From Watersipora subatra (lineage: Eukaryota; Bryozoa; Gymnolaemata; Cheilostomatida; Watersiporidae), in NCBI RefSeq assembly GCF_963576615.1, contig NC_088715.1:30093687-30157686 (forward strand): a stretch of 64,000 nucleotides of DNA, given 5' to 3'. The notes under the pieces were generated by a model, which saw nothing but the letters and a program-made list of their open reading frames with translations, did no database searches and was not told the origin of the DNA. Positions 13,447-61,330 of this stretch are shown one piece after another (position 1 is the first letter of the stretch; every line of letters begins with the position of its first letter). Made by a program: the position numbers and the translations under genes.

Positions 13447-13454
13447 TATATAAG
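13447..13454 (+). promoter_or_regulatory. Probable TATA box of the fibrinogen-domain gene
   Basis: TATATAAG lies 70-77 bp before the start codon. This would place the start of transcription near 13475-13485 and leave out the upstream ATG at 13466. Confidence 0.45.
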
Positions 13455-13523: not shown

Positions 13524-16500
13524 ATGACCTGGGTGGTCAGATCGCCGTTGATCGCTGCTTTACTTTTGGTTGCGGTAAATTCTGATAGTCAAGTGACTAT
13601 TAGCAATGCTCAGCAAAAATTGTTTGCTTACCAACAGCAAATAATTATTCTCAATGATTTGTTAAAAGCTGAAGGATGTGCGAATTCAGTTGAAAAACGA
13701 GACAACAGCTCGGACATCAAGTTAGAAGTGGCCAAACGCCTTTATAATGAGTTAGTTGAAAAACTGGGTAGGTGTCGAGCTGGTAAGCTAGCAACCACTA
13801 CACCTACACTGGCACCTACAGGCCCAGTTCCTTGTCCAGCTTGCAGAGGTAAGTGTTTCTTGTACAGTAAGCAGAGGTAAGTGTTTCCTGTACAGTATGC
13901 AGAGGTAAGTATTCATTGTACAGTATTCAGAAGTAAGTGTTTCTTGTTCTGCATGCAGAGGTGAGTGTTCCTTAATTGTTCAGTAAGCAGATATAAATGT
14001 TCCTTGGCCAGTAAGCAAAGATAAGTGTTCCTTGTGCATCATTCGTAGGTAAGTGTTCCTTGTGCATCATTCATAGGTTAGTGTTCCTTGTATAGTTTGC
14101 AGCGGTAAGTGCTCTTTGTCCAGTATGCAGAGATGAGTGCTCCTTGTCTAGTAAGCAGTGGTAAGTGTTTTTTGTATAGTATTCATAGGTAAGTGCCCCC
14201 CTTGTACAGTATACAGAAGCAAGATTATTTATCCGGCATTCAGAGGTAAGTCAACTGTGTATTTTAGAAAAAGACTTGGAGAGTGATGAATTTAGTTAAA
14301 CGCTATGGAACATCAAGACATGGTCTCCAGCATGTATTAAAGGTTTGGCTATATACTCACGGCAAAATGCAGAGTCAAGACATTGGGCAGATATTTTTGC
14401 AGCTGTGCTCATGGCCGCTGCTAAATGATATTTCACTTAGGTGAAATTAAATTTCAAAGGTCAATTTTCATAATTCAGGTGAATTAAACCATAACTGTCA
14501 CGTACAACTTTTATCGTATTTACTAGGTAAATCAGACATGCTGATTCCTATATTGTACTCAAAATAAAGATTGGTCTACTAACTTTCAGGGTATTGAAGG
14601 CTTTTTTACAGCATTTTAATATCAGTCTCGAAAACAACACGATCGGCACAACAAGCTCCGCCTATAAATACGTGACGTAACCTAGCTTTTTAGGAACGGA
14701 GTTTAGGAATGTTTAGACCGATCTAGAATAATAGAGATGGGTGTTTTAAAATCCATTATTATCTAAATTCAGTCTTAAAAAGAATCTCAGTCTTTTCTGA
14801 AAGGTAAATAAGCTATTTCAATATGCATATTGAAAAGGTTTGTGCGACCTTCACTTTCCTCCACTATTACAAGACTCGTGCATGAGTACAATGCATATAT
14901 TTCTACTTAGTTCATCAAGGTGTACAAGAAAGAATCAAGTAACAGACAATGAACAGGCCCAGAACAGCTCTGCGCTGCTATGCAATTGTTCGGGCTTATA
15001 TAGCTGCTAAACCCCGACCTTGTTCTGCTTGGTTAGACCTGGCACGGCTCGGTCAGGCTCGGCTCGGTCTTGAGTCGGTACGGCTCTGGCTTGGCTGTGG
15101 CTTGGCTTGACTCGGGATGGCTTGACTGTGCATCGGCTTGGTTTGGCTAAATGCAAGGGGACGCCATCCACCACAATATTTAAAAATGGGCTCAAAAAGA
15201 CATGATAACAACGCTAGCTTGTGATAAAATCGTGATTTTTTGAGCTAATTTTTGTTGGCGTTTAGCCCATTTAAACATCATGTAACAAGCTACGAGAAAT
15301 TTGAAATAGTTTCATTAAAGGCTGAGATTATTTTACAGGCTGGGTTTAGTTAATAACGGGTTTTCAGACACCCATCTCTATAATTCCAAATCGGACAAAG
15401 CATCCCTAACTTCTGTTCCTGAAAAAGCTAGGTTTCATCACATATTTATGGGTGGGGCTTGTTATGCCGATTGTGCTGTTTTCGAGACCAATATTAAAAC
15501 GATGTAAAAAAGCCTTTTTATACTCTGAAAGTTAGTGAAACAATCTTTATTGTGAGTACAAAATCGGAATCAGCGTGTCTGATTCACTTTGAAAATACGA
15601 TAAAAGTTGTACGTGACAGTTATGGTTTAAATTAAAATTTAACCAGAACTCTTAGTATTTATTTTGCTACCAATTTTAAATCTTAAATGGTAGCATCTCT
15701 TTCTACCATTTAATTTATCTACTATCAAATATCTCTCTCTATTTGTAAGTATTTTTAATTGATGTATGAGAAATAATTTATGTATATTTGATTCAATGAA
15801 ATGTGTGTTCCTCATTTACACTAATTACAATTTACATTGTAATACACTCTATCTAAAATCAGCTTTGTGTGAGTACAGTTTGAACTTTAAAATCATTACG
15901 AGTTTGCGATTACTATAAGATAACTCACAGGTTCATTCACTGCCATTATTAAGCGGTAAACTTCTGAATTGGAAATATCATAGCGTTTTAACCGTGATCA
16001 AGTTTTGACAATTTTCATGCTGAAGCATCCTTTCGACCGAATCACCCAAAACAACAAGTGAAATCTCAAACATTCGAAAAATATTCATACTTTCTGATGA
16101 AATCTTGTAACATATGATGTGTGCAACCCTATAATTACCAGGAATGTTTAAATGGCAGAATGGCAGTTGTTTTAAATACGATAACCTTCACTTAATCACC
16201 TAATTCTGTTTATTGAAGTGAAGAGATAAATAACATGCTCATCAACCCTATGACATTCAGCTTATAAGATTGACACTCAAACCAACTGAGCTAATCAGCG
16301 ACCTTCCTATGACTCAACATAATTGTGTCAATTCGTATAAATCTCAACGTTTGTCTTTTTGTCAAACTCCTTGTCCAGTTACAGCAATGAAAAATCTGCA
16401 GGGTACTGAATTTGGCCTCAGGATCTCCAGATCTAAAGGCGGTGAACTTGACCATTAAACTGCACAAAATACAGTGTATTCATTATGAAAATAGTTATTA

Positions 16501-19500
16501 CATTGGTTAAGACACTAACACTTAAAGTGCTTGCTTGGGGTTAATAACTAGCACTTTTGACCAATACGCATAACGTTTGTTAAGCTCGCTTAAAACGTGG
16601 TTTTTGTTTTAGTAGAGATTTTAGTAAAGATCTAGTTTTTAAGGTAAGTTACTCAAATTAGTTAGGTAACTTTTCTATCATTCGTGCAATGCTGGACATT
16701 CGGCTAGCAAGAGAATAAAGTCCTATTGGTCCTACAATGTTCAAATTCAGTATAGATACCTGTCTCTGTTTAAAATTAATTTTATAGGTGCAGAACTGAT
16801 TATAAAATGATGCAGACATTAATATAAACAAACTAGCTGTGCTACCCGTCGTTGCTCGGGTGATAAAAAAGTCCTTTGGACAAAAAATTGACTTATATTT
16901 AACATATAACAACATTTGCCATTCTAACTTTCAAACTACATATCATGAGAAAAGTGTTTTGTGTAGTCTAAATAAGTTAATAGATTAATTAATTTCAAAC
17001 TTTGTTAAACAACCGTAATTTTCAAACTTTATTTCATAAGGAAATGATTTTGTGCAGAACAGGTTCTTTTCTTTGGATGCATTAGACAATGTGTAATTTC
17101 TGAGAATACATGTATGTAACAGATTAATAAAAAAATATGACAGAATATGGTAGTATGTTGTAGTTGAAATTTTATTAGAACAATTTCTGCCAAAAAATGG
17201 TCGAATGAAAAATTAATATTAGTAATAAAGATTGGAAACTAAGTAATAGGATACGAAAACAGCATAGGAAAATGAATAATTTTTAAACTTCAAACACGAC
17301 ATTATACTCCAATTATGTTTAAAAAAATGCAAGTTGAAATAAAAAAGATAATGCAACAAACTTTAAAGCCTTATATTATAAACTTCAAAGGTTATACGAA
17401 GTTTATAAATGTAATAAGAGAGTGTAAATCTATTTATGTATACATTTCTCAAAGTACGTAAATTTGTGTAAATATAAGAGGGTGAGGAATAACTGATACT
17501 TGTAATCTTACACGATAAGTTTTACAGTTAATCTCACAGATAATCTAACAGATAATCTTAGAGTAATGTTACAAATGTTTGTTGTAAAATGTGAAATTTA
17601 TTACGAATTACTAATTGGTTAGGTTTAAAGTGAAAGATGTAAAAGCTAATACACAAAGTGAGCCCTGATAGGAACATACAAACAAAGATGTTTTAATTTG
17701 AACTAAAAGAAGTAACATAAGAGTGTTTAAACGAACAAAATATTTATTCCTATACAATGATTGTGGAGCGCAAGGTACCAAATCAACATCCAAAAGACAT
17801 GCTGTAGCTGGAAAAAAGTATTCTGAGCAGCTGGAATAAATAAAAAAGAGAACTAAATTAAGATGTGAAATAAATAGCAAGTATGTAAACTACGAAACAT
17901 ATTATTTAGTAATGATACAATTATTAGAAAGTGCTAAAACAAAAATCGTTACGACCAAATGAAATGCATTTCAAACAATCGCCAAATATTTATTTTGAGA
18001 GAGAAATGTTTGTTGAGAAATGTTTGTTGAGAAATGTTTGTTTGGCGGAAAGCATTGTGTTTGATGAGAGCGTAATGACCTGTGGGCGCATTGTATTAAT
18101 AAATACGTCTTTTAGCTGAAATTTTGTCATTAAGTGATTTTATGTTTGCGCAACCGTTTTACTGTAACGAATAACGCTTAACTCGCGAGCAACTGAATCT
18201 CTTAACAATGTATATAATCAGTACACAATTTGCCAAATTTTAAGATCGTAGATAAATTATTGTCGATATCGTGGGGCTGAACAAATTAGCCCTAACGAAA
18301 TAAAGACAAAAAAGCATCAGGCTGCACATACATAAGTCCCAAAATATTTCTTCCTCGCAGCTTCGTAACGTGTGGTCGCTTTGCTAAAATAATTAGCCTG
18401 TGATTATGATATATCAAATATGATAAAGCCATAGATTGAAATTTCCTAACTGGGTGTTTGTAATGTGTGGGCCCAATGTTAAAATAATTGCTATAGCCGG
18501 ACTATCAAACCTACGAATACGCATATGACGATAAACTTTGAGAAATAGATATATAGATGCAGTAATTATTCTCTGGAATAAACACATTAAACTGGTTATT
18601 TTTCACATCATCAGAGTAAGTTACTTCTATTTAGCACAAATAGGCTGCTAGAGAATTTGAGTTAAGTAGGACACAAATTAAGATTGTAAACTTATTCACA
18701 GAATCATTGAAGAGCAATACAGATGTAGTACTCAGTGTTTTCTGGCATAGGTACATGTATTAACATTTTCCCAAATTTAGCTTTGATGCGATTTTAACCA
18801 AAACTTTATTCCAGGCTTTCTATAGGCTGCCATAAATATAAATGAACAAATCATGAGTCCACATCGTTACCTAGTATAGTCGGGACAAGAGTTCTTTATT
18901 CCAGGCTTTCTATAGGCTGCCATAAATATAAATGAACAAATCATGAGTCCACATCGTTACCTAGTATAGTTGGGACAAGAGTTCTTTATTCCGGGCTTTC
19001 TATAGGCTGCCATAAATATAAATGAACAAATCATGAGTCCACATCGTTACCTAGTACAGTTGGGACAAGAGTTCTTTATTCCGGGCTTTCTATAGGCTGC
19101 CATAAATATAAATGAACAAATCATGAGTCCACATCGTTACCTAGTATAGTTGGGACAAGAGTTCTATGCATAGAGCTTGCAGCTTCAACTTTTGGGTTTC
19201 TCAGTTTATTTGGATCTAACTATAACTCACAACGCCATTTGGTTTTGGCCAATCTGATGGCCAAATTGTTTGCCGCCATGTACATGTAAATGAGGGTTTG
19301 CCCGATTATCCCAAGACGTATAAATAATTTAGGCCACCCAAGAGGTTCATAAACATGTTACGACAGTGTGACAAGTACCATGCTACTACAGTTGGGCTGA
19401 TATGCCTTATCTGTAGACAAGGAAAGGCATAACCTAAGGATTAGGATAACTAGAAGGTTTAAACTGCTGGTCGCTAGTCTGGCTGAAGTCGGTGAAGACT

Positions 19501-22500
19501 AGTTTACATTATATCGCCGTATGTCTCACAATACATCAGTCATCATCTGTAAAAAAATTGTTCACACTGTCATAAATGTTTATGTCAGCGTATTGTCTGT
19601 GGCATATCGTTGTCATTATACAACGTGGTTTCGCCAATGCAATGAAATACTAGTCTTTCATCACGAAGTAGAATACAAATTAAGCAATCTGGGACAGCCA
19701 ATCAGGTTTGTAGAAAAGTTGTACATTGCAAAGGCTGATGTAGACATTTGGCGAAATATCGGGAAAACTTGACGGCTGTATAGTTTTCCTACATATTCAT
19801 TTTGCCTCGGTTTGTCATGCATAGTCAACGATTAATCGCAGAGAGAACAACCCTCCAAGCAGCAATATAGAGGGGACCGGCCTTTATTATCAAAGCGCGT
19901 AATTTGCCAATCTATATATTGGCTATATATTGGCTATATATTGGCTATATATTGGCTATATAGATTGGCTATATAGATTGGCTATATATATATATAGTAC
20001 TTTATTGGCAATAATTTCATTTCACAAATAGAAATGTTTTTCAAATTAGGCCATACAGCAATAGTAAAACAAAAAAAGGGAAAAAAGCAACAGTTAGCCA
20101 TTAAAATTGAATACATAGTCTGACAAATAGTGTTTAAAATGCCTTACTCTGCTAAGAGAACGAATATTTGGTGGAAGATTGGCTATATATTGGCTATATA
20201 GATTGGCTATATATTGGCAATTTTATCAGCCTGTGAGCCGAAAATGAACATAATGCAATGAGGGTATTAAGTTATATAAGAATAAGAATATTTAAATACA
20301 CATCGATCACAATCCATTTCAGAAAGCTGTTCAAAAAGAGAATTGTTCAAATTGCAAAATGATTCGCTTTGTCATACATAATGTAAATTATTTTGATCTG
20401 CACAAGACTCAAAAAAATTAAGTAAATTTGTATTATTTTATTTCATAAACGATATATTAAAAAATTAAGTAATATATGATGAGCTCTCAATTTCTTATAA
20501 ACCCTCTATCCATAAAGAATACTGAGTAATGTGTTGCAATATCTGTAGCAGTACATAAGGTAAAGATATTCATTGTTATGTCTGTCACAAGTAGAGTCAA
20601 TGAAAAAATCTATTAGTAGGTGTATGAATAATTTACAAAGTCAAACACTAGATAATTCTGCACTTTCAGGCCTACTCAGTTTTAATCAGATACAGTTAAA
20701 TTTCCATGTTTGAATCATTTATAAGGTTCAGGGCCAAGCCTTGCAGCAAGGTTATGACTAAGTTACGTAGCACGTATATGGCTGAGTTTTGCTGTAGCTC
20801 TATGAGTGAGTCTTGTAGTAGCTCTAAGACTAAATCCTACACTAAGTCTATGCTAAGTGACAAAGTGATTAAGTCCTGCTATAGCTCTATGACTAAGTGT
20901 TGTGATAGGTCTATTATAATAGCAGTCCTGTGGCAGCTCTATGACTAAGTGTTGGGATAGGTCTATAGCTGTTTTGCGATAGGTCTATGACTAAGTATTG
21001 AGATAGGTCTATAGCTGTCTTGTGATAGGTCTATGACTAAGTCTTGTGACAGGTCTATAGCTGTCTTGTGATAGGTCTATGACTAAGTCTTGTGCAGGTC
21101 TAATAGCTGTCTTGTGATAGGTCTATGACTAAGTCTTGTGACAGGTCTATAGCTGTCTTGTGATAGGTCTATGACTAAGTCTTGTGGCAGGTTTCAAAAT
21201 AAGTGACTTAGTTAATCTATTAGTAAGATGTCTGGCTGTACCTTCATTTGTATAGTAACTGGAACTAATTACTAAATATCCAATGAACTGCATTATTCAG
21301 TCTTGTGCAGATTGTCAGGCCTACTTTGAACATGGCCATAGAAGTCCAGGAATATACAAATTAACAGTTTCCCTTAACAACCCTCCAACCTTTGATGCTT
21401 GGTGTGACTTCTTTGGAAATCATGGCTGGACAGTTATACAGAGACGAGATCAACAGAAGGCTAGCTTCAATAGGAGCTGGCAAGAATACCAAGAAGGATT
21501 TGGTAGAGTGGATGGAGAACACTGGCTAGGTAGGAGTCATATTGTCTAGATTTTCTCCATGCTGAATATCAAAGTTGTTCTTGAGCAGGTTAGTCTATGA
21601 TGATAAATGCCGGAATAAAATATCATATCACCAAAAAGTCAACTTTCTGAAATTTCATAGGTTAAAAACGTTTAATACGAAAGGTTTGTGGATTGTGAAC
21701 ATCTGCTCTTGCGGTTACCTGCTTTCTCTTCTGGGAAATAACTGTGTATTGTATATAAAATATTATGAATTATATAGTAAACTGTTTTACTATTCAGAAA
21801 CTTTCAAAAAATGATAAGCTTATGCTTTTAAGAATTCCTTTTGCAATAAAAAAAACTAAAGCTGGACACGGACTTAGGGGTGTAACCTTCATTCAATATA
21901 AAGCCGGGTCTTAGCACTAAACTGACAAACAAGTGACGTTTTTATAAAAAGAAAATTTGAATCCTAGCTTGGCATATTTAACCATACATAATGCCTGTGC
22001 TAAACATCTGTATCAATAAGCTAATCTTTGGCAATTAGTTAGTCAGTCCTGCTTCAATGGATTAAGATGAAAATATTTAACTTTGGAAGTGTCTGTTTGA
22101 ACTTCTTGCAAAACTTGAAATTAAATTTTCTACTGTTTCAGGCCTCAAAGGTTTCTGCTAACTTTAGACACCACTTGATATGAAGCTCTTTTTATACCAA
22201 CTGCTCATCAACATCAATTTACTCATAAATGCAGTTGTAAATGAGTAAAGCAATGAGTAAAGCAATATTGTGCCAGTGCACAATATTGCTCAAATCAATG
22301 TTTCGCAGTGCAATGAACCACATGTTTAGCTGTTTTGACATCATCATCAAGAATAAAACGTACACACTATGAGGGGTTAGTTGTGGAGGACCGCTAACCA
22401 ACATACAATAGAAATTACCTATCGTGGGTTCTTTCGTTACATTTTAATTGTCTGATTACGACATTCATCAAGAGCCTAGTTCTTTGCCATGCTTTCGAAT

Positions 22501-24987
22501 ATGGATTGACATCGCTGTTCACTAAAGTTGACATTGAATCAGCCAATCAATAACCTAACAGCTGCGATTATCTGTGTCAAATTTCAACATGTTAAAAGTT
22601 CATCGCATCTTCTCTAGTGACGATTACTTTGACCACTCATCACAAAATGATGTAACAGCACCCATTTTTGCAGTTTAGCGCACCTAATCGCTGATTTGGG
22701 TGATAGTGGGCAAGGCCCCTTAGTGTTTAGTATGTAAATGCAAACTTAAAAATTTTAAAACATTTGTTGCATTAGTTGTTTTACATGGTTATTATTCAGT
22801 AAACGAAAGCTTTCAAAAACTGATACAATTACAGAATATTTAACTCTTTATATAGTTCAGTGAAGTGAAATGGTTAGAAGTTGTTAGCTACTAAAAAGGA
22901 CATGAATTCTTTGTGAAGAAAGTAAGAGACATTGCTACTATAAGAAAAATAACATATAAAATCATTGTCATCAGTTAAAAACCTGTTTCAAGTGACATTG
23001 ACAAAACAACTGACGATCGGAGGCTCATTGCATCCTTACTATATTATCTTAGTTATAACTTTAGATGGTATTAGTTGTCTTTACTTTAGTTTACATAACG
23101 TCAAAATAAGTGTATTTTGTTTTAGAACATTTGTTTGGTTATAATTATTTCTGTTTCTTTTATTAGGCTATTAAATGTGCATAATTTTTTTAGGAAATGA
23201 GAAAATTCATCTCCTGACTCAAACCAACCAGAAGCTAAACATTCAACTAGTCTCAAGCAATGGCAGAGTTCGGGAAGGTACCTGGCAGTGGTTTATAGTT
23301 GGAAGTGAAAGCGAGAACTACAAGCTTGGAGTAAGGATTCATAGCTGGCTCAGACAATAATTTTTGTAAATATCCTGTCACTTTTCAGCTTTGCCAACTT
23401 AATTATTTTGCAACAAGCAAAGTTTTCTAGGCAGTTGTGTGCTTTTTTAACGCTGACTGCAATCTTGTTCAGAGTTCATCATTGATAGGAAAAGAATCTG
23501 TCTGTGTTGTGTCCGTGTTACAAAGTTAAATGCTGTAGCAAGATAATAAAACTGAGCCATGAAATAGTGGAGTACTACAATAAATCTAATTCTAACTTCT
23601 TCTGCCACTCAAGTAGCTTGTCTAGTGCAATTAAGCTATAATTTATTGATCAATTCTTTGCTAATGACTTTGAAAAAGTCATTAGCAGTGTTTTATTATT
23701 ATAGAAAATTTTTTTTACTAATAAGATATAATCAAACCAACAAATACCATTGTTGATATATATGACTTGATCGACAATAATTTAATTTTATTAAATGTAT
23801 GTATGCCATAATTTAAAACAGAAAAGTGTTTTAAATTATGGCATACAAAAATTAAAAAACAAAAAAGACAAAATGGTTTGATATATAGCCTTTATATATG
23901 TTTTCTGCTAAAAGAATGTATGTAAGGTACTACATTGTTAAAGCAGCCACCAATGATATTTTCAAAAAAACTTAAAAGTAAACTTTTTAAAATTTAGCTG
24001 TTTTTAGTTTTGATTAATAATAATCTTTAAACTGTGAAACTGAAAGATAAATTCTAATAATCTTGCTGATTATGTTTGATCCCAGTTATGTCTCGCATCT
24101 AAAGAAACTCTGTTCAATGTTATTAAAAAGTATAAACGTTTTGTTAAAGAAGTATGGCTCACTTTAATAGTTGACAAAGTCCCTAAGTAATAATTAGTTT
24201 TACTCATCACCCTGTAGCATTTAAATATTCTACAAAAATATTTATAGTTTTTGCTCCGCAGAGAGTCAACTTTCAGACAGATTTTGCTGGAGGAAAACCA
24301 ACTAAAAGTAGTGGCAAGTCTTGCACTCTTTTATGTTGATTTTTGCAGATAGGCAGCAATGGTTACAATGGAACCTTGAGAGACGAGTTTTCGTTCTACC
24401 ATCATGGACTTAACTTTACCACTTATGACAGAGACAATGATCGGTTAACTCATTTTGAAAGAAATTGTGCCATTTCGTCAAAAGGTAAACAAATGCTGTT
24501 AGGTAAAACTTTGGCATCATCTACTTTTTATGCTCTCAGCAGGTGCTTGTCATTTGTTAAGGAGTTGGTTAATCTTGTCAGATGAATATGTGGTATGATG
24601 TTATGAAACAACAATTACCAAAGTTTGTGTCTTTCTGTCTTCGAGGTTTGAACAGATTTGTCCCAATGCCAGAACAGAATATCGATCAAAGTGTTTAGGA
24701 GTTCAAGATCAGCTAAACGCATGAAGCTTATCTTAACTAACTTCTCGTAGAGAGGCTGCATAATAAAAATTAAGTGTAATAAAAATTTATTTGTTTTTAT
24801 TATCTTTACTATTTTACCACTTTTTTTTTAACACTTTTACTATTTTCTCTGACAAGTAAACCTCTATTAACACAGCATGTACAAAACTAATGGCAAAAAA
24901 TATACTTCTACTATTATCTTTAGCTACACACATTATATCACTCGAAATTTATTTTATACAGTATTATTGAGCACTCAGAAGTAGAAC

Positions 24988-25040: not shown

Positions 25041-25235
25041 CCTCAGAAAGTTTACATCTTTATATGTATATATATCTTTTCACAGACTTTTGCTGTTATA
25101 ATTTTTTTATTTGTAGGAGGCTGGTGGTATGACACCTGTTCTAATGTTAATCTCAACAAAGGGAATGGCTTGGGAATGTTTTGGTATGTTACATCAGAAA
25201 GACTTCTTTCCTCCGTCATGAGAATAACCAGATAA
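13524..25235 (+). CDS. Secreted fibrinogen-related domain protein (FReD/FREP-like lectin), complete, five exons
   Basis: Exons are 13524-13848, 21311-21529, 23194-23330, 24349-24484 and 25117-25235. Phases fit throughout and give 311 aa. Residues 1-22 are a signal peptide (hydrophobic LIAALLLVAV). Residues 23-90 are Gln/Leu/Lys-rich and probably helical. Residues 91-108 form a Thr/Pro linker ending in CPAC. The fibrinogen C-terminal domain fills 109-311: DCQAYFEHGHRSPGIYKL, GWTVIQRRDQ, GRVDGEHWLG, Y.LGIGSNGYNGTLRD, the Ca-binding DRDND (254-258), NCA and GGWWYDTC, with the four usual cysteines. Family members bind glycans or microbial surfaces, and molluscan ones often act in immunity; here that is inference. 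There are no Ig or collagen domains, so it is neither a classical FREP nor a ficolin. The domain is slightly short, ending MRITR. AATAAA follows at 25271. No paralogue in the window. Confidence 0.9.
13849..14250 (+). repeat. 28-bp tandem array of a splice-donor-bearing unit
   Basis: About 15 units spaced 28 bp apart, starting with the exon 1 donor itself. GTAAGT occurs exactly at 13849, 13877, 13905, 13933, 14049, 14105, 14161, 14189 and 14245, and GTGAGT at 13961. Several units also hold TTTCTTGTACAG or a relative of it, which resembles a weak acceptor. Units drift in sequence but keep the AGGTAAGTG core best. It forms the first 400 bp of intron 1 of the fibrinogen-domain gene. Confidence 0.9.
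14488..15626. mobile_element. Foldback-type element with ~280-bp inverted arms and TTAA borders
   Basis: The left arm (14488 to about 14765) and right arm (about 15350 to 15626) are diverged inverted copies. They share ACCATAACTGTCACGTAC, the stretch around CGAAAACA.CACGATCGGCA, and TAGAGATGGGTGT. TTAA stands outside both ends (14484-14487 and 15627-15630). The 580-bp centre includes a low-complexity G/C/T stretch (15020-15150, variants of GGCTTGGCTC). No transposase seen. In intron 1 of the fibrinogen-domain gene. Confidence 0.7.
15627..16820 (+). other. Intron 1 interior, mostly featureless
   Basis: AT-rich intron sequence. The only recognisable item is a tRNA-like segment on the minus strand, about 16312-16230. 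It has TGATTAGCTCAGTTGGTTTG (an A-box-like D-arm) followed by GGGTTGATGAG, and is probably the head of a SINE or a tRNA pseudogene. No coding signal. Confidence 0.45.
16834..17000 (+). repeat. Dispersed repeat, copy 1 of an inverted pair
   Basis: It begins CTAGCTGTGCTACCCG and runs into TTTGCCATTCTAACTTTCAA. The same sequence occurs inverted at 27597-27748. The start resembles the GC-rich end common to many invertebrate interspersed repeats (GTGCTACCCGGCGTTGC). The element class is not determined. Confidence 0.65.
17001..18800 (+). other. Intron 1 interior
   Basis: AT-rich, with no conserved coding frames. A short 14-bp triplication (GAGAAATGTTTGTT) lies at about 18000-18040. Nothing else recognised. 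Confidence 0.5.
18804..19163. repeat. 90-bp minisatellite, four copies
   Basis: Units start at 18804, 18894, 18984 and 19074. They differ by only a few substitutions (for example CCAGGC/CCGGGC, AGTATAGTCG/AGTATAGTTG). Near identity means recent amplification. Intronic. Confidence 0.95.
19164..19905 (+). other. Intron 1 interior
   Basis: An open frame of 83 codons (19521-19772) shows no recognisable family and has no paralogue in the window. I do not call it a gene. Confidence 0.4.
19912..20215. repeat. TATATTGGC-type short tandem repeat
   Basis: Two clusters (19912-19995 and 20175-20215) of an 11-15 bp unit TATATTGGCTA, separated by about 180 bp of unrelated sequence. Intronic. Confidence 0.85.
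20730..21192. repeat. 46-bp tandem repeat next to fibrinogen-domain exon 2
   Basis: About five copies of a 46-bp unit made of two related halves (GTCTATGACTAAGTCTTGTG and GTCTATAGCTGTCTTGTG) at 20950-21192. Diverged half-units are seen from 20730. It ends about 120 bp before the exon 2 acceptor. Confidence 0.9.
21530..23193 (+). other. Intron 2 of the fibrinogen-domain gene
   Basis: Donor GTAGGA, acceptor TTTTTTTAG. It holds the inverted MITE copy at 22268-22719. No other feature recognised. Confidence 0.7.
22268..22719 (-). mobile_element. Harbinger-like MITE, copy 2 (inverted relative to copy 1)
   Basis: Read on the minus strand it aligns over its whole length with 9752-10236 (AAACAGC, ATTGATTTGAGCAATATTG, ACATCATTTTGTGATGAG and other stretches), with many substitutions. 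A TTA (TAA on the minus strand) adjoins the right end at 22720. The left border is approximate. Confidence 0.65.
23660..23686. other. Perfect 12-bp inverted repeat
   Basis: GCTAATGACTTT, a 3-base loop, then AAAGTCATTAGC. Intron 3 of the fibrinogen-domain gene. No known function is assigned. Confidence 0.85.
23801..23846. other. Perfect 20-bp inverted repeat (hairpin)
   Basis: The left arm 23801-23820 starts GTATGCCATAATTT. The loop is GAAAAG. The right arm 23827-23846 is the exact reverse complement. It lies in intron 3, 115 bp from another perfect hairpin. Confidence 0.9.
24990..25039. repeat. (AT)n microsatellite
   Basis: About 48 bp of pure AT alternation in intron 4 of the fibrinogen-domain gene, 78 bp before the last exon. 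Confidence 0.95.
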
Positions 25236-30088: not shown

Positions 30089-33000
30089 TCACTTGGTGCA
30101 GACGACACACGTTATGGGCTTGTCGGACTCATACGGAGGACAAAGAAAATCTTCATCGCATTTGGCTGTTGTGAATTCCAACTGTGCACCAATAATATGA
30201 GCACTCTTGCCATCCATATATTCAGGTTGACCATCGACGCACTCAAATGTGGTCTGGTGGTTGAAGGAATGGTACGCTGACATCAGGTAGCCTGAAGTAT
30301 ACAAAGTACTTGAGACATAAGTTTATCAGACACTCACCTAAACTGCAACAAACTCTCAGCAGTTACACATACCTGCATGCTATTCATGCCAGTATGGATG
30401 CTATACTAGCTTTGGAACCATAGTAAAAGGTCTTTAGGATAGGAGTTTCTAATATGAGGCGTGGCTAAAAATTACTTCTTTTTTAAATTTATAGAAAATT
30501 TATTTATTAACAAAACTTAAAAAATATATTTTATGCCACTTCAGCATTAGCAGATTTAGACTAATAACAGCTATGATACGTTTATTGACTATGACTGCTT
30601 TCAAAATGTACTTTGAGAACGGATGGTTTTATGGATTTTCAGATAGATTTAAAGATTTTCCAAAAAGTCTTTATATGAGTAAAAACACCACATTTAAATA
30701 AACAACAACTTATCAGCAAAAATTTAAAATAATTCTATAGCGCTTGACCGCTACTAAAAATAGTGACTCACCAGCCGTGTGCTTTTTAAAATTTACGTAC
30801 ACGCGCATTACTCCAGCATCCTCAACTAACACTTCCCTACGCGCTCACTTTGAAGCATTCCTTAACTGCTCTCTGACTATAAATAGTAACAGGACACTCA
30901 AACTAAATCCACACTAACATACCTTCATACTCAAAAGTCCAATCATTGTTAGGGCAGTTCCTTTTGCCAGGAATCGTCATTACTGATGACCTGCTGCTTA
31001 CGTAACAGACAGCACAAGGAGCTTTCTGGTGATCTGCTGCAGAGCTGAATATACCATAGCTCCCACTCTCATACTCGGCTCCAGCCAAATTAGCAGTCAA
31101 AGACATGTAGGCTGCACCATCACTGTTATACTCAACATCTGTTGCCATGCACAGGTAGTTTACTCCACCACCTGAATCTATTGATCGGGAGCTTCCGGTG
31201 AAACCTGAGATTACGCAGAACAACATGATAAAATTCCAACATCAATGGGTAAATAATGATATGAGATACTCTGAAAGGAAATCTCTACATAGGATTACAT
31301 ATAAGATTCATATTTCCCTTATAAGTTAACACAATCAACAAGCTTCAATCCTTCACAATAGAAAATATATATGATATATTTTATTGATAGCGTAGAGTAG
31401 GGAGGAAAGACGATGTTTCAAAAGTTATATAATCCAGTTGTTATTGAGGTGTGTGAATATCCAGCACATACCAGTGAAAGGGTGGAGGCAGGCATTAAGA
31501 CTGGAAACAAAAGATGACACGGCAAAAGATTAGTAGTCGGAACGCAAACGAGGAGAGGAATAAAGGAGAGTGCAAAATAATTCTGGAGACTTGAAGGAAG
31601 GAGGAGCTTACCCAAAGGAAAAAAAACTGCAGTTATAGAATGTTGTATTGAAAACACTTATCTTTATTCTTAGTTATTCTTTATTTTTAGTTTACTTTAT
31701 TGTGTAGAAGTCTGGAGAAGAATCATTGCTAAACATTTAAAATTGAGAACCGATCATTGACTAGTTTTATCAGCCGTAACAGCTTCAATAATTAGGAATA
31801 ATGTGTTTTGTATTTCAAGGATCTGTAGCGATTTTTCTGTCGAATAGAAAAAACTTAACATTCTCAATTTTAAACTCAAGTAGTTATTATTTAAGTATGT
31901 TGTTTCAATAATATGGTAGTATGGTATATATAATAGTATGGTATAATAGTATATAATAGTATGGTAATATTTTACATACAGTAAATATACATGTAATGTC
32001 TCTGAGTATTTTAAATACTGTAAAATCACCAGTAACATGTTTTAATTGCTAAAAAACTTCAAATTGACAAATCTACTATAATATTTAGAATGTATACAAG
32101 CCTACTAGAACACAAAAGTAATGATTTTATTAAATTTCTCTGCCACTAAAATTTTTAAAAGGATTAAAATGTAGAGTAGTTAGGTTTGAGTTATAGGTGA
32201 GTTGTGTCTACAGGTGTTAAATCTATGGCTTAAACCAAAATCTTTGCAACAGAAAAATCGATTTCGGTACTCAAAAAGCTACTAATCTGTAGTAAGTCAA
32301 TGTCAATACCTTCATATACTAGTGAAGCATCAGATCCACATGAGGTTCGCCCCCATCTGGTGTAAATTGCTTCTCTTTTACCAGCAGGTCCAGCCTCGCC
32401 TTTACGACCAGGTTCACCAACTAGTCCCTCTGCACCCTTATTTCCCTGTTTACCAGCCTTTCCAGCTGCACCTATGGATAAAATAAACTAGCTACTTGAT
32501 TATATTAAATTTACTGTTAAGATGGCTGTAAAATCATATATGTCAAAATATACATATGGTAGCAAATAGCCAAAATATAAGACATCTTGACAGTTTATTA
32601 TTAGTTTTAAAAAAATTGTCAACTCAGCTTTATAAAATTCGTAACCAATCGCTGTCTGTAAATACAATCTAAAAGAAAAAGTAAAATTTCCAAGTGTTAC
32701 CTTTGAATTCAAATCAGATAACTGTAATTAAACACAGAGTATTTACTACCCTATTTTGAGAAAAGATGCAAAATGCTGATCGTATAGTGATTAGACACAC
32801 TTGTAAAAACCAATATCTTATGCTTTAGGTGACTATTTATACATAACAGACAAATACAATCTATGTTATAGTTGCTTTAGGCACCTTTCGATACCATAGC
32901 AAAAGAGGATAAATCTGAATTGTTTGTATTAAACCAATAACATTATTATAATAGTAACCATAACTTGGTTTATGATTGATTTGCAGCAGATTACAAAACA

Positions 33001-36000
33001 GTTGATTTTTGTTTGCAATAGCGTACAGGAGCTTGAAATGTTTGGTATACATGCGTTGCTTCAGAATATTTTTGGTACGAGTTGCAAACATAGTTTTCTG
33101 GTGCTTAGTGATCTTTTTGTTGTTACAAACAGTATAAAACAAATCATCATTGAATTTAAAAACACGCCAATGTTCTTAAGTACTCGGTCTTTAGGGTGAC
33201 TCCGTGTTTGACTCTGACGGAATTGTTTCATTTCAGAGCTAAATCAGTAGCTTTTAATAGGGCAGAAAGTTGATGAATTGTCAGTTATCTTACCTTTTTC
33301 CCCATCTGGGCCAGGTAGTCCATTTCTTCCTGGCAATCCATCCACTCCATCATTACCATCTGCTCCATCTCTACCATTAGAACCATCTGTACCAGCTTCG
33401 CCTTTCACTCCGTTTATTCCGTCTCGGCCATCCACTCCATCTCTGCCATCTGCCCCATCTTTACCATCTGACCCATCTCTTCCAGTCCCTCCTTTTTCTC
33501 CATTCACACCGTCTCTACCATTTGTTCCATCTGCTCCATCTCTACCATCTCTGCCAACTATTCCTGGTGGTCCAGGAGGACCGGGGGGTCCAACTAGGTA
33601 AAATAGAGATAAATTTTTGGAGATGATGGCCAACAAATTAGCAACTAATAGAAAGAAGATCAAAAAGGGCACCAAGGTTTTTTTGCTCATTATTTTCTGC
33701 TATAGTGTAGCCTTTCTAGTGTTTTTATAAATTATAAACTCTATTTTGGTTATTTTTTACCATATTTATATCCTCAACATTCGTTATTATTGTTATCACG
33801 ATAGGTCATTTTATTCAATGTTTAAACATGCATCGCAAAAACGAACTTAAACACCGTCTGTTGTTATTTTTATTTTACGATTAAAGTAGATTTATCAGTA
33901 CAACACTTGCTACAACTTTATAAATTAAAAATTTCTGATGCGAATCATTAAAGATAAAACAAATTTAACATGATATAAACTTGTAAAAAAATGGAACGTA
34001 CCTAACAATACTTTATACATATTTTGTGCAAGTTGGTTATTGCAAGACCGCAATGGTAGAGCAAATTTTTGTGATTCAAGCATTAGTGAGTACATAAAAA
34101 TGTGAAATTCAATGTTCTCCTGTAGCAAAAGTTCTTTTTAGATTTTGTAGTAATTATTAAACAAATAAAATTAAAACTAATAAACAAATAAAACCTTAAA
34201 TAGGCTTCATGATACATCTGAAAATTTCTTCATTTGTTGAAAAAATACGTTACTCGGTTAATTCATGAAAGCATTGTGTCTTCTAAAACTTGCCATAAAA
34301 CTTTAAAACTTAATTATGTATATCATCAACAGACTACTTTTATATCATTTCTGGTTTTATTTAGCTAGACATCAAGTCAACTGATCCATTTGAAATATTG
34401 CCAAATTGTAAACTAACAATCACATTTCTGTGATAAGAGAACTGCTATGAATAGAAAGTTTTAGCTATAAATACATATGAGCAGTCTGTAACTAAAACCA
34501 ATATTATTTGATACTCAAAGGAAATGATAAGGTGGATGGTATATCAGTATGAAAAGATCATCTACCTATTGTATTTGGCATGTGAGCCTTTTGTTAAGAG
34601 ATTAATTTATAGACAAATAAATGGTTTGTTTGTTTATAAGCTTATGGTGATATGTTCTATTTGTAGATCAGTTATAGGAAGAACCCTGGAAGAAATACTT
34701 TCTACTCTTGATTATGAGGAGCCAATTTGAGATATTACATGCATGAAGTAATTAGTTATGCGCTAATAAAAATAGCCCCATATATATAATAAAACATCAT
34801 ATAAACCAATGTAGTATAAGACCCTATGGCGTAATATAATATCATAAAAATAATATGCAATATATTAAATAATACTATTTAATATATTAAAGTATATGTA
34901 ACATAATATAACATAATATATCGTAAGAATTTTAAGAGTTGCACAAGAAGCCCTTGGATACTTAAGGAAATTATTACAAATTGCAGTTGATTTTAACATT
35001 AAGTAGCTCAAATTGCTATGAATAGGAATTGATAATCTACCCCAGATCAGACGGGTACAAAACGCATGAATAAATACATAATTGATCCATAAAACCATCA
35101 ATTCTGGAACAAAAAGCGCTGAACTTAAAAACATCCAGTTGGGTGTGCAAAAACCAGACCACAAGGTTATTGCTGTTCTTATTAATGCTCAGACTCTACA
35201 GTGCATGTAGTAGAAATAGTCAGCTTGCAGAGATACGCAGCTTTAAGGATATGAAGCAAAAACAGTGCAGCAAGCAATGAATATGCTTGGTGAGTGAAAT
35301 GTTCTGTTTGCTAGCAAAGGGTAACATTCAGAATTTTCTATACTCGAATATAAATAAATATATATTAATATATTTATATAAATATAATATATAATATTTA
35401 TATTAATAAAAATATAAAAATATAAATGAATATAAATGAATAATGTAACCAAATTGACTAAATATCTGAATTAATGAGAAATTCTGTCCTAATATACTTT
35501 GTATATGACAAATTTAAACACATGAACATACTATTTAAAACAATAAACATTGGTCGTGTTAATTTTGTTCAGTAAAATGAAGCTAATAGTATTGTGAACT
35601 TTGCCTTATTTCAGCTGACAGGTGCTTGCTTTTGAGAAGTCAGACTTCTTCAAATAAGATGCTAGTTTAGAAGAAACTTTCTACAGTTTGAGGTACTTAA
35701 TAGTTGCTCACCTTTGGTTTCCCACGGGTTGTTTCCCGCTGCAGCCTCTTCCATCTACAAAAGAAATATTTTACTAAACTATTTGATGATAATCTCTGGT
35801 GTTGAGAATTGTATGTCTAGAAATGTTTGATTAATTGGAAAATTAATGTGAAATTAATTAGGGACTGTGATCTGCAATGTCTAGAGGATGTTTTAAAACC
35901 AAACTAGTGCAGCTTTTGTGATTGTATAAAAAGTGAGTTTTAAATTAGAAATGTCTGAGAGTTTTAACCGTTTTGGCAATTTTAATCCGGGAAAATTTTT

Positions 36001-42541: not shown

Positions 42542-45500
42542 TCACTTAGTGCAGACGACACACGTTATGGGCTTGTTAGAGTCATACGGAGGACAGAGAA
42601 CTCCTTGACCACATGCGGCTCTTGTGAAGTAAAACTTTTCACCAATAATATCAACATTGTCACCATCCATGTATTCAGGTTCACCATCGACGCACTCAAA
42701 TGTTGCTTGGTGGTCGGAATATCTGTACGCCGTCATCAGGTAGCCTGAAATACACAAAGTACTTGAGACATAGGTTTATCAGACACTTACATAAACTGCA
42801 ACAAACTCTCAGCATTTACACCTTTTAACATGCTAGTCACACCAGTATGACTGCTATACTAGTTCTAGAACCATGACAGGTAATATTGTGGAGATGACTT
42901 GCTCATGCGATAAAACCTGGCTAACAATATGGCTTAAAAATATTTGTTTTTATGAAAAAACTTTTAGTTTACATTTCATACCACTTCAGTATTATCTGAT
43001 ACAGCCTACTGACAGCTATAATGGGTTTGTTACAACTATAAATGCTTTTAAGAAGTACTTCGAAAAGTTAATGTAACTGATTTATTATACTCTTACGATT
43101 GATTTTTATTGGATTTTGGTACTTGTAAATGCACCACAGCTAAATAATTAGCATCTGATCAGCAAGAATTTGGGAGAATTCTATAACAATGGACCTCTGC
43201 TAAAGATCCTTACGCCATAGTCGAAGGCTCATTATAATTTGAATATGCCCATCAATATCTTATGTTCCTCTAAAAGCTCACTTAGAAGCATTCATTAACT
43301 GCTGTTTGACTATAAATAATAACAGGACACTCAAGTTAAATGCTAACCTTCATACTAAAAGTACATTGAGAAGTGATGAAGCTCTGGATTTTTAAATAAA
43401 TTACACAAAAATTTCAGTAAATTTTTGTACGACTAAAACACCACAGCTAAATAGAAAACAACTTTCCAGCATAAATTTAAAATGATTCTATAGCGCTTGA
43501 CCATTACTAAATATACTGACTCACCGGTTGCGTGCTCTTTAAAATTCAAATACGCGCACATTACTCCAACATGCTTATCTAACACTTCCCTACAAGCTTA
43601 GAAGCATTTATTTGCTGCTATCTGACTATAAATAATAACAGGTATAATAATAATAAATCATAACTCAAGTTAAATGCACGCTAACATACCTTCATACTCA
43701 AAAGTCCAATCATTGTTAGGGCAGTTCCTTTTACCAGGAATCATCATTGCGGATGACCTGCTGCTGACATAACAGACAGCACAAGGAGCTTTCTGATGAT
43801 CTGCGTCAGAGCTGAATACACCATAGCTCCTACTCTCATACTCAGTGCCAGCCAAATAAGCAGACGAATATGTGGTACTATTGCTGTTATACTCGATATC
43901 TTTTGCCATGCATTGGTAGTTTACACCACCACCTTCGTCTATCGTTCGGGAGCCTCCGGTGAAGCCTGAGATTATGCAAAACAACATTATAGAATTTCAA
44001 CATCAGCGGGTAAATATTGATACAAACCACTTTGAAAGGAAATCTCTAGTTAGCTTTAAACATAAGTTTCTTATTTCCTTTATAAGTTAGCACAATCAAC
44101 AGGCTACAATACTTGACAAAGGAAAATATATACGATATATTTTATTGATAGCGTAAAGTAGGGAGGAAAGATGATGTTTCAAAAGTTATATAATCCAGTT
44201 GTTATTTAGGTGTATGAAATACAGGACATGCGAGTGGAAATACAGGACATGCGAGTGGAAATACAGGACATGCGAGTGGAAATACAGGACATGCGAGTGG
44301 AAATACAGGACATGCGAGTGGAAATACAGGACATGCGAGTGGAAATACAGGACATGCGAGTGGAAATACAGGACATGCGAGTGGAAATACAGGACATGCG
44401 AGTGGAAATACAGGACATGCGAGTGGAAATACAGGACATGCGAGTGGAAATACAGGACATGCGAGTGGAAATACAGGACATGCGAGTGGAAATACAGGAC
44501 ATGCGAGTGGAAATACAGGACATGCGAGTGGAAATACAGGACATGCGAGTGGAAATACAGGACATGCGAGTGGAAATACAGGACATGCGAGTGGAAATAC
44601 AGGACATGCGAGTGAAAGGGTGGAGGCAGGCATTAAGACCAAAAGCAAAAGATTACAGGGCAAGAGATTAGTAGACGGAGTGCACATGAGAAAAGAAATA
44701 AAAGAAAAGAAGAATGCAAAATAATTCTGGAGACTTGAAGGAAAGAGGAGCTTACGCAAAGGTAAAAACTACAGTTATAGTATGTTGTATTGAAAACAAT
44801 TATCTGTAGTTTACTTTGTGTAGAATTCTGGAGAAGAATCATTGCTAAACATTTAAAATTGAGAACTGATCATTGACTAGTTTTATCAGCCATGACATCT
44901 TCAATAATTTGGAGAAAGGAGTTTAGTATTCAAGGATCTGTAGCGATTGTTCAAGTGAATAGAAAAATCTTAGCATTCCTAATTTTAAACTGTGACTGTT
45001 CTTATGTAAGTTTTATGCTGTTTTAATAAATGTTATAGTACTATTTTATGTAGATATAATGTTTTTGAGTGTCTTAAATACTGTAAAATCACCAGTTACA
45101 CGCCTTCATTGCCAGAAAAACTTCAAATTGATAAATCTACTATGCTATTTAGAGCGTATGCTGCCTACTAGAAGACAAAAGTAATATTTCAAATGAATTT
45201 TTTTGCAACTAAAATTGTTGAAGGAGATAAAAATGTAGAGTAGTCTGGTTTGAGTTGTAAGTGAATTATTCACAAGTGTTAAATCTCTGGCTGAAACCAA
45301 GAATTTTGCAACAGAAAAATCGATTTCGGTACTCAAAAGACCATTAGTCTGTAGTAATCAAGGTCAATACCTTCATATATTAGTGAGGCATCAGATCCAC
45401 ATGTGGTTCGTCCCCATCTGGTGTAAATTGTTCCAGTTCCACCACTACCAGCAGGTCCAGCCTCGCCTTTGGGACCAGGTTCGCCTGCTGGTCCATCAGC

Positions 45501-48500
45501 ACCCTTATTTCCCTGTTTACCAGCCCTCCCAGTTGCACCTACACATAAAATAAACCAGCTACTTGATTATGTTGAATTTAATGTTACAATGGGTGCACAA
45601 TCATATATGCTAAAAATAAAATTATGATAAAAAATAGCCAAAATATTAGACATCTTGACAGTTTATTCTTAGTTAAAAAAATTGTGAACTCAGCTTTACA
45701 AAATTCATAATCTATTGCTGTCCGTAAATACGATCTAAAAAAGCAAAGTTTCCAAGTTTTACCTTTTGAATTTAAATCAAATAACTAAAATTAAACACAG
45801 AGTATTTACCAACCTACTTAATTAAAGAAAAAATTCAAAATACGGATTTTATTGTGTTTACTGTTTAGACACACCTGCAAAAACTTCTATCTTGTTGGTT
45901 TAGTGGCCAATGTCACCTAATGCTTCAGGAGAATATCTTTACAAAACCGACTAACACAATCTATATCATATTTATTTTAGGCACATTTTGATGGCATGAC
46001 AAAATAACTGCATCTCAATTGTTTGTATTAATCAACAAGATTATTACCTTGCTAACCATAAATTGAATTTTTAATGACTTGTAGGAGATTAAAAACAGTT
46101 GATTTCAGTTTGCAGTAGCGTCTAGGTTTTTGAGTTGTTCAGTATAAATGCATTGCTCCAGAACATTTTTGTAATAAGCATGTAACAAAACTTGCCTACT
46201 TAACTATTTGTAACAGATTGTAAAATAGTTTAATTTAATGCGCAGTATTGTACAGGTGCTTGAAATGTTCAGAAATTTGCAGAAAAGTTTAGTCAAAAGT
46301 CGAGAACAAAGTTTTAAACTGGTTTGATAATCTTTGTGGTGTTTCACATAAAAACCAACAATAAATGAATTTGAAAAATTGCCAATGTCTTCAAGTACGT
46401 TGTCTTTAGGGTGACTCGGTGTTTAATTACGATTATTTAATTACGATTATTTAATTACGATTAGCTTTATTACAAATCTGTAGTTCTTAACAAAAGAATG
46501 TTTATAAACTGTTCATGATCTTACCCTTTTCACCATCCATGCCAGGTAGTCCATCTCTTCCTGGGAATCCATCTACTCCATCTTTACCATCAGAACCATC
46601 TCTACCGATGTCTCCTTTCTCTCCGTTTATTCCATCTCTGCCATGTACTCCATCTCGGCCATCTGCCCCATCTTTACCATCTGCCCCATCTCTTCCATCA
46701 TCCCCTTTTTCTCCATTCACACCATCTCTGCCATTTGCTCCATCTGCTCCATCTCTACCATCTCTACCAGCCATTCCTGGGGGTCCAGGAGGTCCGGGTG
46801 GTCCGACTAGGTAAAATAGAGAGCACTTTCTAAAGATGACTGCTAATAAATTAGCAACTAAGAGAAAGAAGATCAGAAATGGCACCAATGTTTTATTACT
46901 CAATAATATCTGTCATAGCGTAGATTTTTTACTGTTTGTAAAGATTTGAAGTTCTATTTTGGTTACTTTTATTGCCATTTTAATATTTTCAACACTAAAT
47001 ATTTTTTGTAATTTACTTTGCTATCATGATAAGGAATTTTATTCAATAGTTAAGTTCAACAAAATAAAATCAAACTCTGACTGCTGCCATTTTTATTTAT
47101 GACTACAGTAGACTTTACAGTCAAATAGTTGCTGCTAATGTTGAAATTTTTTACATTAGAAGTTTTCAATGCTGATCAAAGGTCAAAGCTAATACCTAAA
47201 AAACTTGTAATTAAAATAGAACATATTTAACTATATTTTATACATTGTTCAAGTTAGTTATTACAAGACTGCAAGTGATACACCAATTTTTTGTACTTTA
47301 AACATCAGTGGATACATGAGAAGTGGCCTTCAATGTTTCCATGTGACCACATTGTCTGTTTTAATTTTTACTAACAATTTGAGCCAAAATTAGACTTTAT
47401 GGCACATCTCAACATTTTTTATTTGTTGGAAAAATCCATTTTTTGGTTAGTTCATGAAAGCATTGTGTCTCTACAAAGTTTGCCCTTAAACTCCGAACCC
47501 TACATATGTATATCATCAACAGACTACTTTTATATCATTTCTGGTTTTATTTAGCTAAAAATCAAATCAGCTAATCCATTTGAAACATTATCAAATGGCA
47601 AACTAACAATCACGTTTTCGTAATAAGAGAACTGTTACAAATACAAAGTTTTTGCTATAAATACATCTGAGAAGTCTGTAACTAAAGCCAATATTATTTG
47701 ATACTCAAACGAAATGATAAGATGGATGGTATATCAGTATGAATAGATAATCTACCTATTGTATTTGGCACGTGAGCCTTTTGTTAAGAGATCAATTTAT
47801 AGACAAATAATTGGTTAGTTTGAGTGTGTATAAGCTTATGCTGATATATTCTATTTGTAGATCAGTTATAGGAAGAACCCTGGAAGAAATACTCTCTACT
47901 CTTGATCATGAGGAGCCAACTAGAGATATTACATACATGAAGTGATTTATTATTAAGTATTACTATTTATCACCTGCAAATTTTTTGTTTGTTAGAAAAA
48001 TTAGTCTATTGGTTAGTTCATGAAAGTCTCCAAAAAACTTCAACTATAAAACTTGAGACTTTACTTATGTATAGCGTCAGCAGATTTTTTTACATTAACC
48101 TTAATGCTCAAATGGAATGTTAAGGTGTATGCTGCATCAGCATGAATATATAGTTTACGTATTGTATTTGGAATGTAAGCCTTTTGTTAACGGAACACTT
48201 TATAAGCAGGTAAACTTGAAATTTATAGGCTGATATATTTTGTTGATGGAAGATCTGTTGTAAGAGGAACAATGCAAAAGACACTTTTTACTCTGAATTA
48301 AGAGATGCCATCTGAAAATACTATAGACAACAGCATTAAAATAAGCATGTAGTAGTTAACTATGTATTAATAATAATAAGAATAACGTATATGAAACAAC
48401 ATGATATAAACTAACATAGTATAATAAAATAAAATGTTATATGATGTAGTATATCATCATAAGAATATTAGTAATAAGAATAATATATTATCCTATCATA

Positions 48501-58510: not shown

Positions 58511-59846
58511 ATATCCCAATATTGGTTGTAGAAAAATTATCGCAGGTGTGTATGATATTGTTACCATTGATTTGGGGACACTTACTGATTATTTTATTTG
58601 ATATAACAGTCAACATCATTCCTAATACCATTGCTGCTCGATGTTTCCAATTTAATGCCAAAATATCAACCTCGATGAATATGCTTCTTAAGCAGTTTCC
58701 CGAGCACGTTGAACAATTATAACAAAATAACTCAGTCAGTCATGGAATATGTCAACTCCATTGCAACAATATGTCCCCAATTTGATGGTAAAATTATTCT
58801 CACAGATGTGCATGATATTTTAACCATTGATTTGGGGACATTGACTGATTATCTTATTTGAGATCACAGTCATGATTATTCCTAATTCCATTGCTGCAAG
58901 ATGTTCCAAATTTAATGCCAAAATATCAACCTCGATGAATATGCTTCTTAAGCAGTTTCCTGAGCACATTGATCAATTATAACAAAATAACCCAGTCAGT
59001 CATAGAATATGTCAACACCATTGCAACCATATGTCCCCAATTTGATGGTAAAATTATTCTCACAGGTGTGTACGATATTTTAACCATTAATTTGGGGACA
59101 TTGACTGATTATTTTATTTGAAATCACAGTCATCATCATTCCTAATACCATTGCTGCTAGATGTTCCAAATTTAATGCCAAAATATCAATCCCAATAAAT
59201 ATACTTCTTAAGCAGTTTCCTGAGCACATTGACCAATTATAACAAAAGAAAACAGTCAGTCATAGAATATGTCAACACCATTGTAATGATATGTCCCCAA
59301 TTTGATGGTAAAATTATTCTCACAGGTGTGTATGATAATTTAACCATTGATTTGGGGACATTGACTGATTATTTTATTTGAAATCACAGTCATCATCATT
59401 GCTAATACCATTGCTGCTCGATGTTCCAAATTTAATGCTAAAATATCAATCCCAATAAATATGCTTCTTAAACAGTTTCCTGAGCACATTGACCAATTAC
59501 AACAAAAGAACACAGTCAGTCATAGAATATGTCAACACCATTGCAACCATATGTCCCCAATTTGATGGTAAAATTATTCTCACAGGTGTGTACGATATTT
59601 TAACCATTAATTTGGGGACATTGACTGATTATTTTATTTGAAATCACAGTCATCATCATTCCTAATACCGTTGCTGCTCGATGTTCCAAATTTAATCCCA
59701 AAATATCAACTCCAATGAATGTGCTTTTTAAGAAATTTTCTGAGCACATTGACCAATTAAAACAAAAGAACACAGTCAGTCATAGACAATGTCAACACCA
59801 TTGCAACAATATGTCCCCAATTTGATGGTAAAATTATTCTCACAGG

Positions 59847-59936
<90 letters not shown>

Positions 59937-61330
59937 ATATTTTAACCATTAATTTGGGGACATTGACTGATTATTTTATTTGAAATCACAGTCATCATCA
60001 TTCCTGATACCATTGCTGCTCGATGTTCCAAATTTAATCCCAAAATATCAACTCCAATGAATGTGCTTTTTAAAGAGTTTTCTGAGCACATTGACCAATT
60101 AAAACAGAAGAACACAGTCAGTCATAGACAATGTCAACACCATTGCAACAATGTGTCCCCAATTTGATGGTAAAATTATTCTCACAGGTGTGTATGATAA
60201 TTTAACCATTGATTTGGGGACATTGACTGATTATTTTATTTGAAATCACAGTCATCATCATTGCTAATACCATTGCTGCTCGATGTTCCAAATTTAATGC
60301 TAAAATATCAATCCCAATAAATATGCTTCTTAAACAGTTTCCTGAGCACATTGACCAATTACAACAAAAGAACACAGTCAGTCATAGAATATGTCAACAC
60401 CATTGCAACCATATGTCCCCAATTTGATGGTAAAATTATTCTCACAGGTGTGTACGATATTTTAACCATTAATTTGGGGACATTGACTGATTATCTTATT
60501 TGAAATCACAGTCATCATCATTCCTAATACCGTTGCTGCTCGATGTTCCAAATTTAATCCCAAAATATCAACTCCAATGAATGTGCTTTTTAAGAAGTTT
60601 TCTGAGCACATTGACCAATTAAAACAGAAGAACACAGTCAGTCATAGACAATGTCAACACCATTGCAACAATATGTCCCCAATTTGATGGTAAAATTATT
60701 CTCACAGGTGTGTATGATAATTTAACCATTGATTTGGGGACATTGACTGATTATTTTATTTGAAATCACAGTCATCATCATTGCTAATACCATTGCTGCT
60801 CGATGTTCCAAATTTAATGCTAAAATATCAATCCCAATAAATATGCTTCTTAAACAGTTTCCTGAGCACATTGACCAATTACAACAAAAGAACACAGTCA
60901 GTCATAGAATATGTCAACACCATTGCAACCATATGTCCCCAATTTGATGGTAAAATTATTCTCACAGGTGTGTACGATATTTTAACCATTAATTTGGGGA
61001 CATTGACTGATTATTTTATTTGAAATCACAGTCATCATCACTCCTAATACCATTGCTGCTCGATGTTCCAAATTTAATGCCAAACTAGCAACTCCAATGA
61101 ATATGCTTTTTAAGCAGTTTTCTGAGCACATTGACCAATTAGAACAGAAGAACACAGTCAGTCATAGACAATGTCAACACCATTGCAACAATATGCCCCC
61201 AATTTGATGGTAAAATTATTCTCACAGGTGTGTATGATATTTTAACTATATATTTGGGGACATAGAACAATTATTATGTGTGAAATCACAGTCATGAACA
61301 ATCTAAAAACCGTTGCTGTAAGATGGCCGT
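58511..61330. repeat. Satellite array, 260-bp monomers with 520-bp dimer organisation
   Basis: TTTGGGGACA recurs at 58571, 58831, 59091, 59351, 59611, 59953, 60213, 60473, 60733, 60993 and 61253. The spacing is 260 bp except for one step of 342 caused by an inserted TG tract. Two monomer types alternate: a (59351, 60213, 60733) with CAATAAATATGCTTCTTAAA, and b (59611, 59953, 60473, and a variant at 60993) with CAATGAATGTGCTTTTTAA. Each monomer has an inverted repeat, TGTCCCCAATTTGATGG... against ...CCATTGATTTGGGGACA, around CACAGGTGTG. Confidence 0.95.
59846..59936. repeat. (TG)n(CGTG)n microsatellite inside one satellite monomer
   Basis: The short CACAGGTGTGTATGATA of a normal monomer is expanded by about 82 bp of TGTG and CGTG steps. 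The sequences on both sides continue the monomer without other change. Confidence 0.95.

Follow-up and report, generated by a model that had tools for sequence, protein, structure and literature searches.

In amphioxus, the globin genes BflGb6 and BflGb9 carry mirages, in which an exon/intron boundary is duplicated in tandem in the manner of a minisatellite (PMC3087553). Imperfect repeats at splice sites are also reported for amphioxus PGBD5, where Adh and TnC are cited as further cases and where a predicted extra exon within the repeats was set aside by the authors, transcript data being wanting (PMC3902484). Both sources report that regular splicing is undisturbed by amphioxus mirages (PMC3087553, PMC3902484). 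Array length that is unstable from allele to allele is a further trait of a mirage. Internal tandem repeats are further described as a route to intron gain or gene change, the units of variable human repeats being 30 bp on average (PMC4974935 and PMC2812944).

We analyzed a 64,000-nucleotide stretch of Watersipora subatra DNA (the window; G+C of 34%) that contains a comparable arrangement at the head of the first intron of a predicted gene. Exon limits were chosen by eye and then checked by translation. The resulting model comprises five exons with compatible phases at every junction and encodes a 311-aa fibrinogen-domain protein. Its features are as follows, a slash marking a splice junction:

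13447..13454, + strand: TATA-like motif from a motif scan, ~75 bp upstream of the ATG; putative promoter
13524..13848, + strand: coding part of exon 1, from translation, ending in phase 1 (AGA G/)
13827..14251, + strand: 28-bp array of 15 units, from TRF and unit cutting, consensus GTTCCTTGTACAGTATGCAGAG/GTAAGT
13827..13854, + strand: unit 1 of the array, the final 22 coding nt of exon 1 and the authentic donor in the predicted exon model
13849..13854, + strand: donor of intron 1, GTAAGT, the sole one of 11 tested that gives 311 aa
13849..21310, + strand: predicted intron 1, 7462 bp
13878..13880, + strand: in-frame TAA within the second donor, which halts translation after splicing from donor 3 or beyond
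21311..21529, + strand: exon 2, start of the fibrinogen domain (R/DCQAYF...)
23194..23330, + strand: exon 3 of the predicted model
24349..24484, + strand: exon 4 of the predicted model
25117..25235, + strand: exon 5 of the predicted model, through the stop codon

The N-terminus encoded by exon 1 is hydrophobic and signal-peptide-like by eye, and the exon closes with a Thr/Pro linker. The product carries the Fibrinogen C-terminal domain of fibrinogen-related proteins (Pfam Fibrinogen_C, PF00147, residues 107-286, E 1.9e-42), and its best PDB matches are angiopoietins and angiopoietin-related proteins, the best solved chain being angiopoietin-related protein 2 (E 1.9e-34). Because the Pfam and PDB matches begin around residues 103-108 (103-108 for the PDB alignments), the predicted fibrinogen domain starts at the junction of donor 1 with the acceptor ending at 21310 (R/DC). 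When the 11 GT donors of the array were joined to exon 2 by script, the four AT/GC units being left out, donor 1 yielded 311 aa and donor 2 yielded 123 aa, and the in-frame TAA limited the product of the nine others to 118 aa. These translations bear out the original prediction that the productive phase belongs to donor 1 only. Among the 1512 stop-to-stop ORFs of at least 25 aa in the window, the fibrinogen piece of exon 2 matched itself only, and exon 1 matched itself and a single ORF at chance level (E 0.88). The array DNA had 12 matches elsewhere in the window, none better than E 1.2, and Rfam returned 0 matches at gathering thresholds.

TRF called the 28-bp array at 13827-14217 (13.8 copies, 74% matches), and cutting at every donor position resolved 15 units of ~28 bp over 425 bp. 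Both agree with the earlier claim of a donor amplified into about 15 tandem units; the limits given at that time, 13849 and 14250, move to 13827, inside exon 1, and to 14251. Unit 1 reads GTTCCTTGTCCAGCTTGCAGAG, the final 22 coding bases of exon 1, followed by GTAAGT, and array units have this same composition of a 22-nt exon end and a donor. Each unit is therefore a copied exon/intron boundary, and the array duplicates that boundary, not merely the donor. The count of exact GTAAGT, announced as at least nine, is 9 of 15 units. At the donor position, GT is found in 11 of the 15, AT in three and GC in one; two units contain small insertions and one is 1 base short. AGGTRAGT is matched by 7 of the 15 units, which hold 7 of the 10 such sites on the + strand of the window, and the GTAAGT hexamer is not enriched across the whole window (42 occurrences on both strands for 38.7 expected). 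Identity at lag 28 reaches 0.65 in the array, for a mean of 0.29 over 2000 stretches of 425 nt drawn at random from the window, a sample that may include stretches overlapping the array itself. The edges of homology are sharp: scored against the consensus, the 28-mers just outside reach −8 and −6, unit 1 reaches 22 and the last unit 12, on a scale where shuffled 28-mers have a mean of −4.6 and a 99th percentile of 3.

This arrangement had been said to have no standard name; it is that of the amphioxus mirages. Like them, the array consists of tandem units laid across a splice boundary, 13827-13854 spanning it in the predicted exon model, with AG/GT signals kept in many copies. Its first repeat abuts the 5′ splice site, as does that of PGBD5. 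Neighboring units among the 15 are ~75% identical, whereas 81-100% is given for BflGb6. From lag 1 to lag 7, mean identity between units decreases only from 0.745 to 0.705, which suggests a single old expansion and later drift. Canestro et al. reportedly described in 2002, as cited by others, an amphioxus Adh3 mirage with units of 10-72 bp, a range that includes 28 bp, the unit length found here. A human counterpart, a minisatellite of the gene 6-16, was reported by Turri, Cuin and Porter in 1995; judging by the title of that paper it resembles the present array in offering several splice donors to one transcript, and it differs in gene, in sequence and in unit length, reportedly 12 bp against 28 bp. 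The repeats associated with intron gain are short and intragenic and carry AG/GT or cryptic splice sites, as does this array, in which however the copied boundary already existed and there is no sign of a new intron.

We consider that the array is a neutral mirage, that is, a minisatellite of the exon/intron boundary at the head of intron 1 of a fibrinogen-domain gene, with a probability of roughly 0.78. A 28-bp piece made of 22 coding bases and the donor would have been tandemly duplicated into 15 units, presumably by slippage or unequal exchange. The first copy, which ends exon 1, would still be under coding and splicing constraint, and the 14 later copies, being intronic, would drift about neutrally. 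Reading frame and domain homology suggest that splicing proceeds mostly through donor 1; leaky use of donors 2 and 3 would give shortened products, probably removed as faulty mRNA. The array thereby adds a new member, most likely neutral, to the mirages already described in amphioxus genes.

Arrays are abundant enough in the window that finding one at a splice site of the gene is no surprise. Manual merging of the TRF rows left 33 arrays, which occupy 10.7% of the window, or 6.3% if the large satellite is left out, and random placement of these arrays strikes at least one of the eight splice sites in 46% of trials (37% with that satellite excluded). Local repeats equal to or better than those of donor 1 occur at 7.5% of 600 random points. 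Local duplication is not out of the ordinary at the seven other splice sites of the gene, which are matched by 23-97% of 600 random points. The exonic foot of the array closes a stretch rich in Thr and Pro immediately ahead of the domain, a place likely to tolerate change.

Other repeats were found in the window. The array at 20777-21192 (merged TRF rows) was rejected as a matching amplified acceptor, as it ends 118 bp short of the exon 2 acceptor at 21310. The two share the 12-mer AGTCTTGTGCAG, a degree of similarity that just 0.8% of 500 randomly chosen YAG sites equal, but the local repeats of the exon 2 acceptor are equaled or bettered at 23% of 600 random points and by this control are nothing unusual. 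The larger part of that array is made of 46-bp units, in which a repeated TGACTAAGTCTTGTGACAG/GT resembles a branch site and acceptor. Also inside intron 1, four 90-bp tandem copies with 98% matches lie at 18804-19165. On the minus strand, two similar collagen-repeat exons located ~13 kb apart at 30906-33699 and 43673-46912 (Pfam Collagen, E 1.4e-17 and 1.2e-17) each have a similar downstream exon, for which no Pfam match was found at E 0.01. The two genes, which we take to resemble short-chain collagen C4-like proteins, are apparently paralogous, and a 21-bp unit repeated 19 times with 100% matching (44216-44614) apparently lies between exons of the second. The region 58536-61295 holds two runs of 260-bp satellite units (~130-bp half-units) separated by a GT repeat. 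Of the 25 donor-like sites ranked best on the + strand of the window, 10 fall in this region, a reminder that repeats resembling donors can also arise with no evident role in splicing.

Conservation of the donor among copies 2-15 was compared with that of the rest of the unit. The essential GT is kept in 10 of these 14 copies for 9.3 expected by drift, and the neutral minisatellite, initially raised as one alternative, is the best supported reading. Exact GTAAGT is kept in 8 of the 14 for 4.1 expected under uniform-rate drift (binomial p = 0.027), an excess that speaks against neutrality. Once the variation among the other columns is used to model the donor columns, p becomes 0.097 for GTAAGT, 0.50 for GT and 0.15 for substitutions. 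Substitutions amount to 9/84 in donor columns and 57/307 in the others (Fisher p = 0.058, rising to 0.19 when the two most variable columns are omitted), and column permutation gives p = 0.12. By parsimony, donor columns changed 1.17 times each and columns elsewhere 2.05 times (p = 0.11). Ranked among the 28 circular windows of the unit, the donor is joint lowest by parsimony and third by identity. GTAAGT is the commonest intact hexamer among the 23 within a unit (8/14), ahead of the overlapping GGTAAG (7) and of the best non-overlapping one (6). The donor is well kept, yet not clearly beyond other columns, and GT is no better kept than under drift; at these essential bases the later copies look neutral.

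Predicted pairing with U1 is the second observation at odds with a neutral mirage. Taken as the best duplex with the U1 5′ end, the register not being forced, it amounts to −12.6 kcal/mol for each of donors 1, 2 and 3 and to −5.8 to −9.1 kcal/mol for the other three donors of the gene, all of which are surpassed by 8 of the 10 later GT donors (−10.4 to −12.7 kcal/mol). Since later donors are predicted to pair about as well as donor 1, sequence strength alone would not explain the preference for donor 1; position and exon context would have to. Over the 11-nt site donor 2 is identical to donor 1, and donor 3 departs from it at a single base, so a degree of leaky splicing at both is to be expected. 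These data also bear on a possible splicing rheostat, in which the extra donors would bind U1 and compete with donor 1, the length of the array setting the share of transcripts diverted to truncated, decay-prone mRNA. We regard it as improbable, though it is the strongest of the rival explanations. The U1 pairing and the eight later copies with exact GTAAGT are in its favor, together with the truncation of the protein by all ten extra GT donors tested. Set against these are the retention of GT at drift level only, the loss of significance of the hexamer excess once columns differ, and the undisturbed splicing reported for amphioxus mirages. Because GT is kept no oftener than drift predicts, the U1 sponge or splicing dial envisaged in the original prediction finds no clear support.

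Somewhat less probable still is a heritable form of such a dial in what would be an innate-immune-type lectin gene, with the donor array varying in length and its copy number setting the share of transcripts that use later donors or that include in-frame 9-nt microexons. If true, the former would encode a secreted fragment of 118-123 aa lacking the fibrinogen domain, or would decay, and some of the latter would place a cysteine beside that domain.

The proposal that the units act as a microexon or ratchet array, with the YAG of a copy as acceptor and its AG/GT as donor of 9-nt exons or of zero-length recursive steps, we judge quite unlikely. A YAG lies 9 nt upstream of the donor position in 10 of the 14 later copies, 6 of which keep GT; the intervening 9 nt are in frame and stop-free, adding for example V-C-R, and from unit 3 onward the YAG is at least 47 nt past donor 1. 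On the other hand, using the YAG of unit 2 would leave an intron just 19 nt long, and pyrimidines ahead of the YAGs number 8-11 of 17, for an intron mean of 8.6, so that the layout gains no positive evidence. The acceptor-like motif TTTCTTGTACAG is indeed present in the units, as had been noticed; it is coding sequence copied from the end of exon 1, and in unit 1 its pyrimidines encode P-C-P-A-C-R. A recursive (ratchet) splice point has a strong pyrimidine tract directly before AG/GT, and recursive splicing leaves sawtooth nascent RNA or recursive junctions. Ahead of ten GT donors of the array, 8 of which directly follow AG, pyrimidines number 9-12 of 17 with purines between them, roughly equal to the 10-12 of 17 ahead of the four real acceptors of the gene. 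Runs of 5-7 T occur in three of these four acceptors and, among the copies, in unit 13 only.

A promoter-proximal platform, whose donors would recruit U1 and so aid transcription or shield intron 1 from premature polyadenylation, is more doubtful again: strong predicted U1 sites do lie ~400 bp downstream of the TATA motif, and intron 1 contains AATAAA ten times and ATTAAA ten times (counts without expectation, in AT-rich DNA), against which GT retention shows no excess over drift. Least probable of all is the birth of intron 1 from duplicated AGGT-containing exon units (the Rogers model), which the exon-derived AG/GT units and fission-yeast precedents with a 24-bp unit (PMC4974935) would allow, and which is opposed by an array covering just the first 403 bp of the 7462-bp intron and by the weakness of the resemblance between unit 1 and the boundary of exon 2, which 3% of 1000 random YAG sites equal, the array itself being included in this null.

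For the question of how the spliceosome chooses among many near-identical donors 28 nt apart, the array offers a compact natural test. It also bears on the possible contribution of tandemly duplicated exon ends to new exons or introns.
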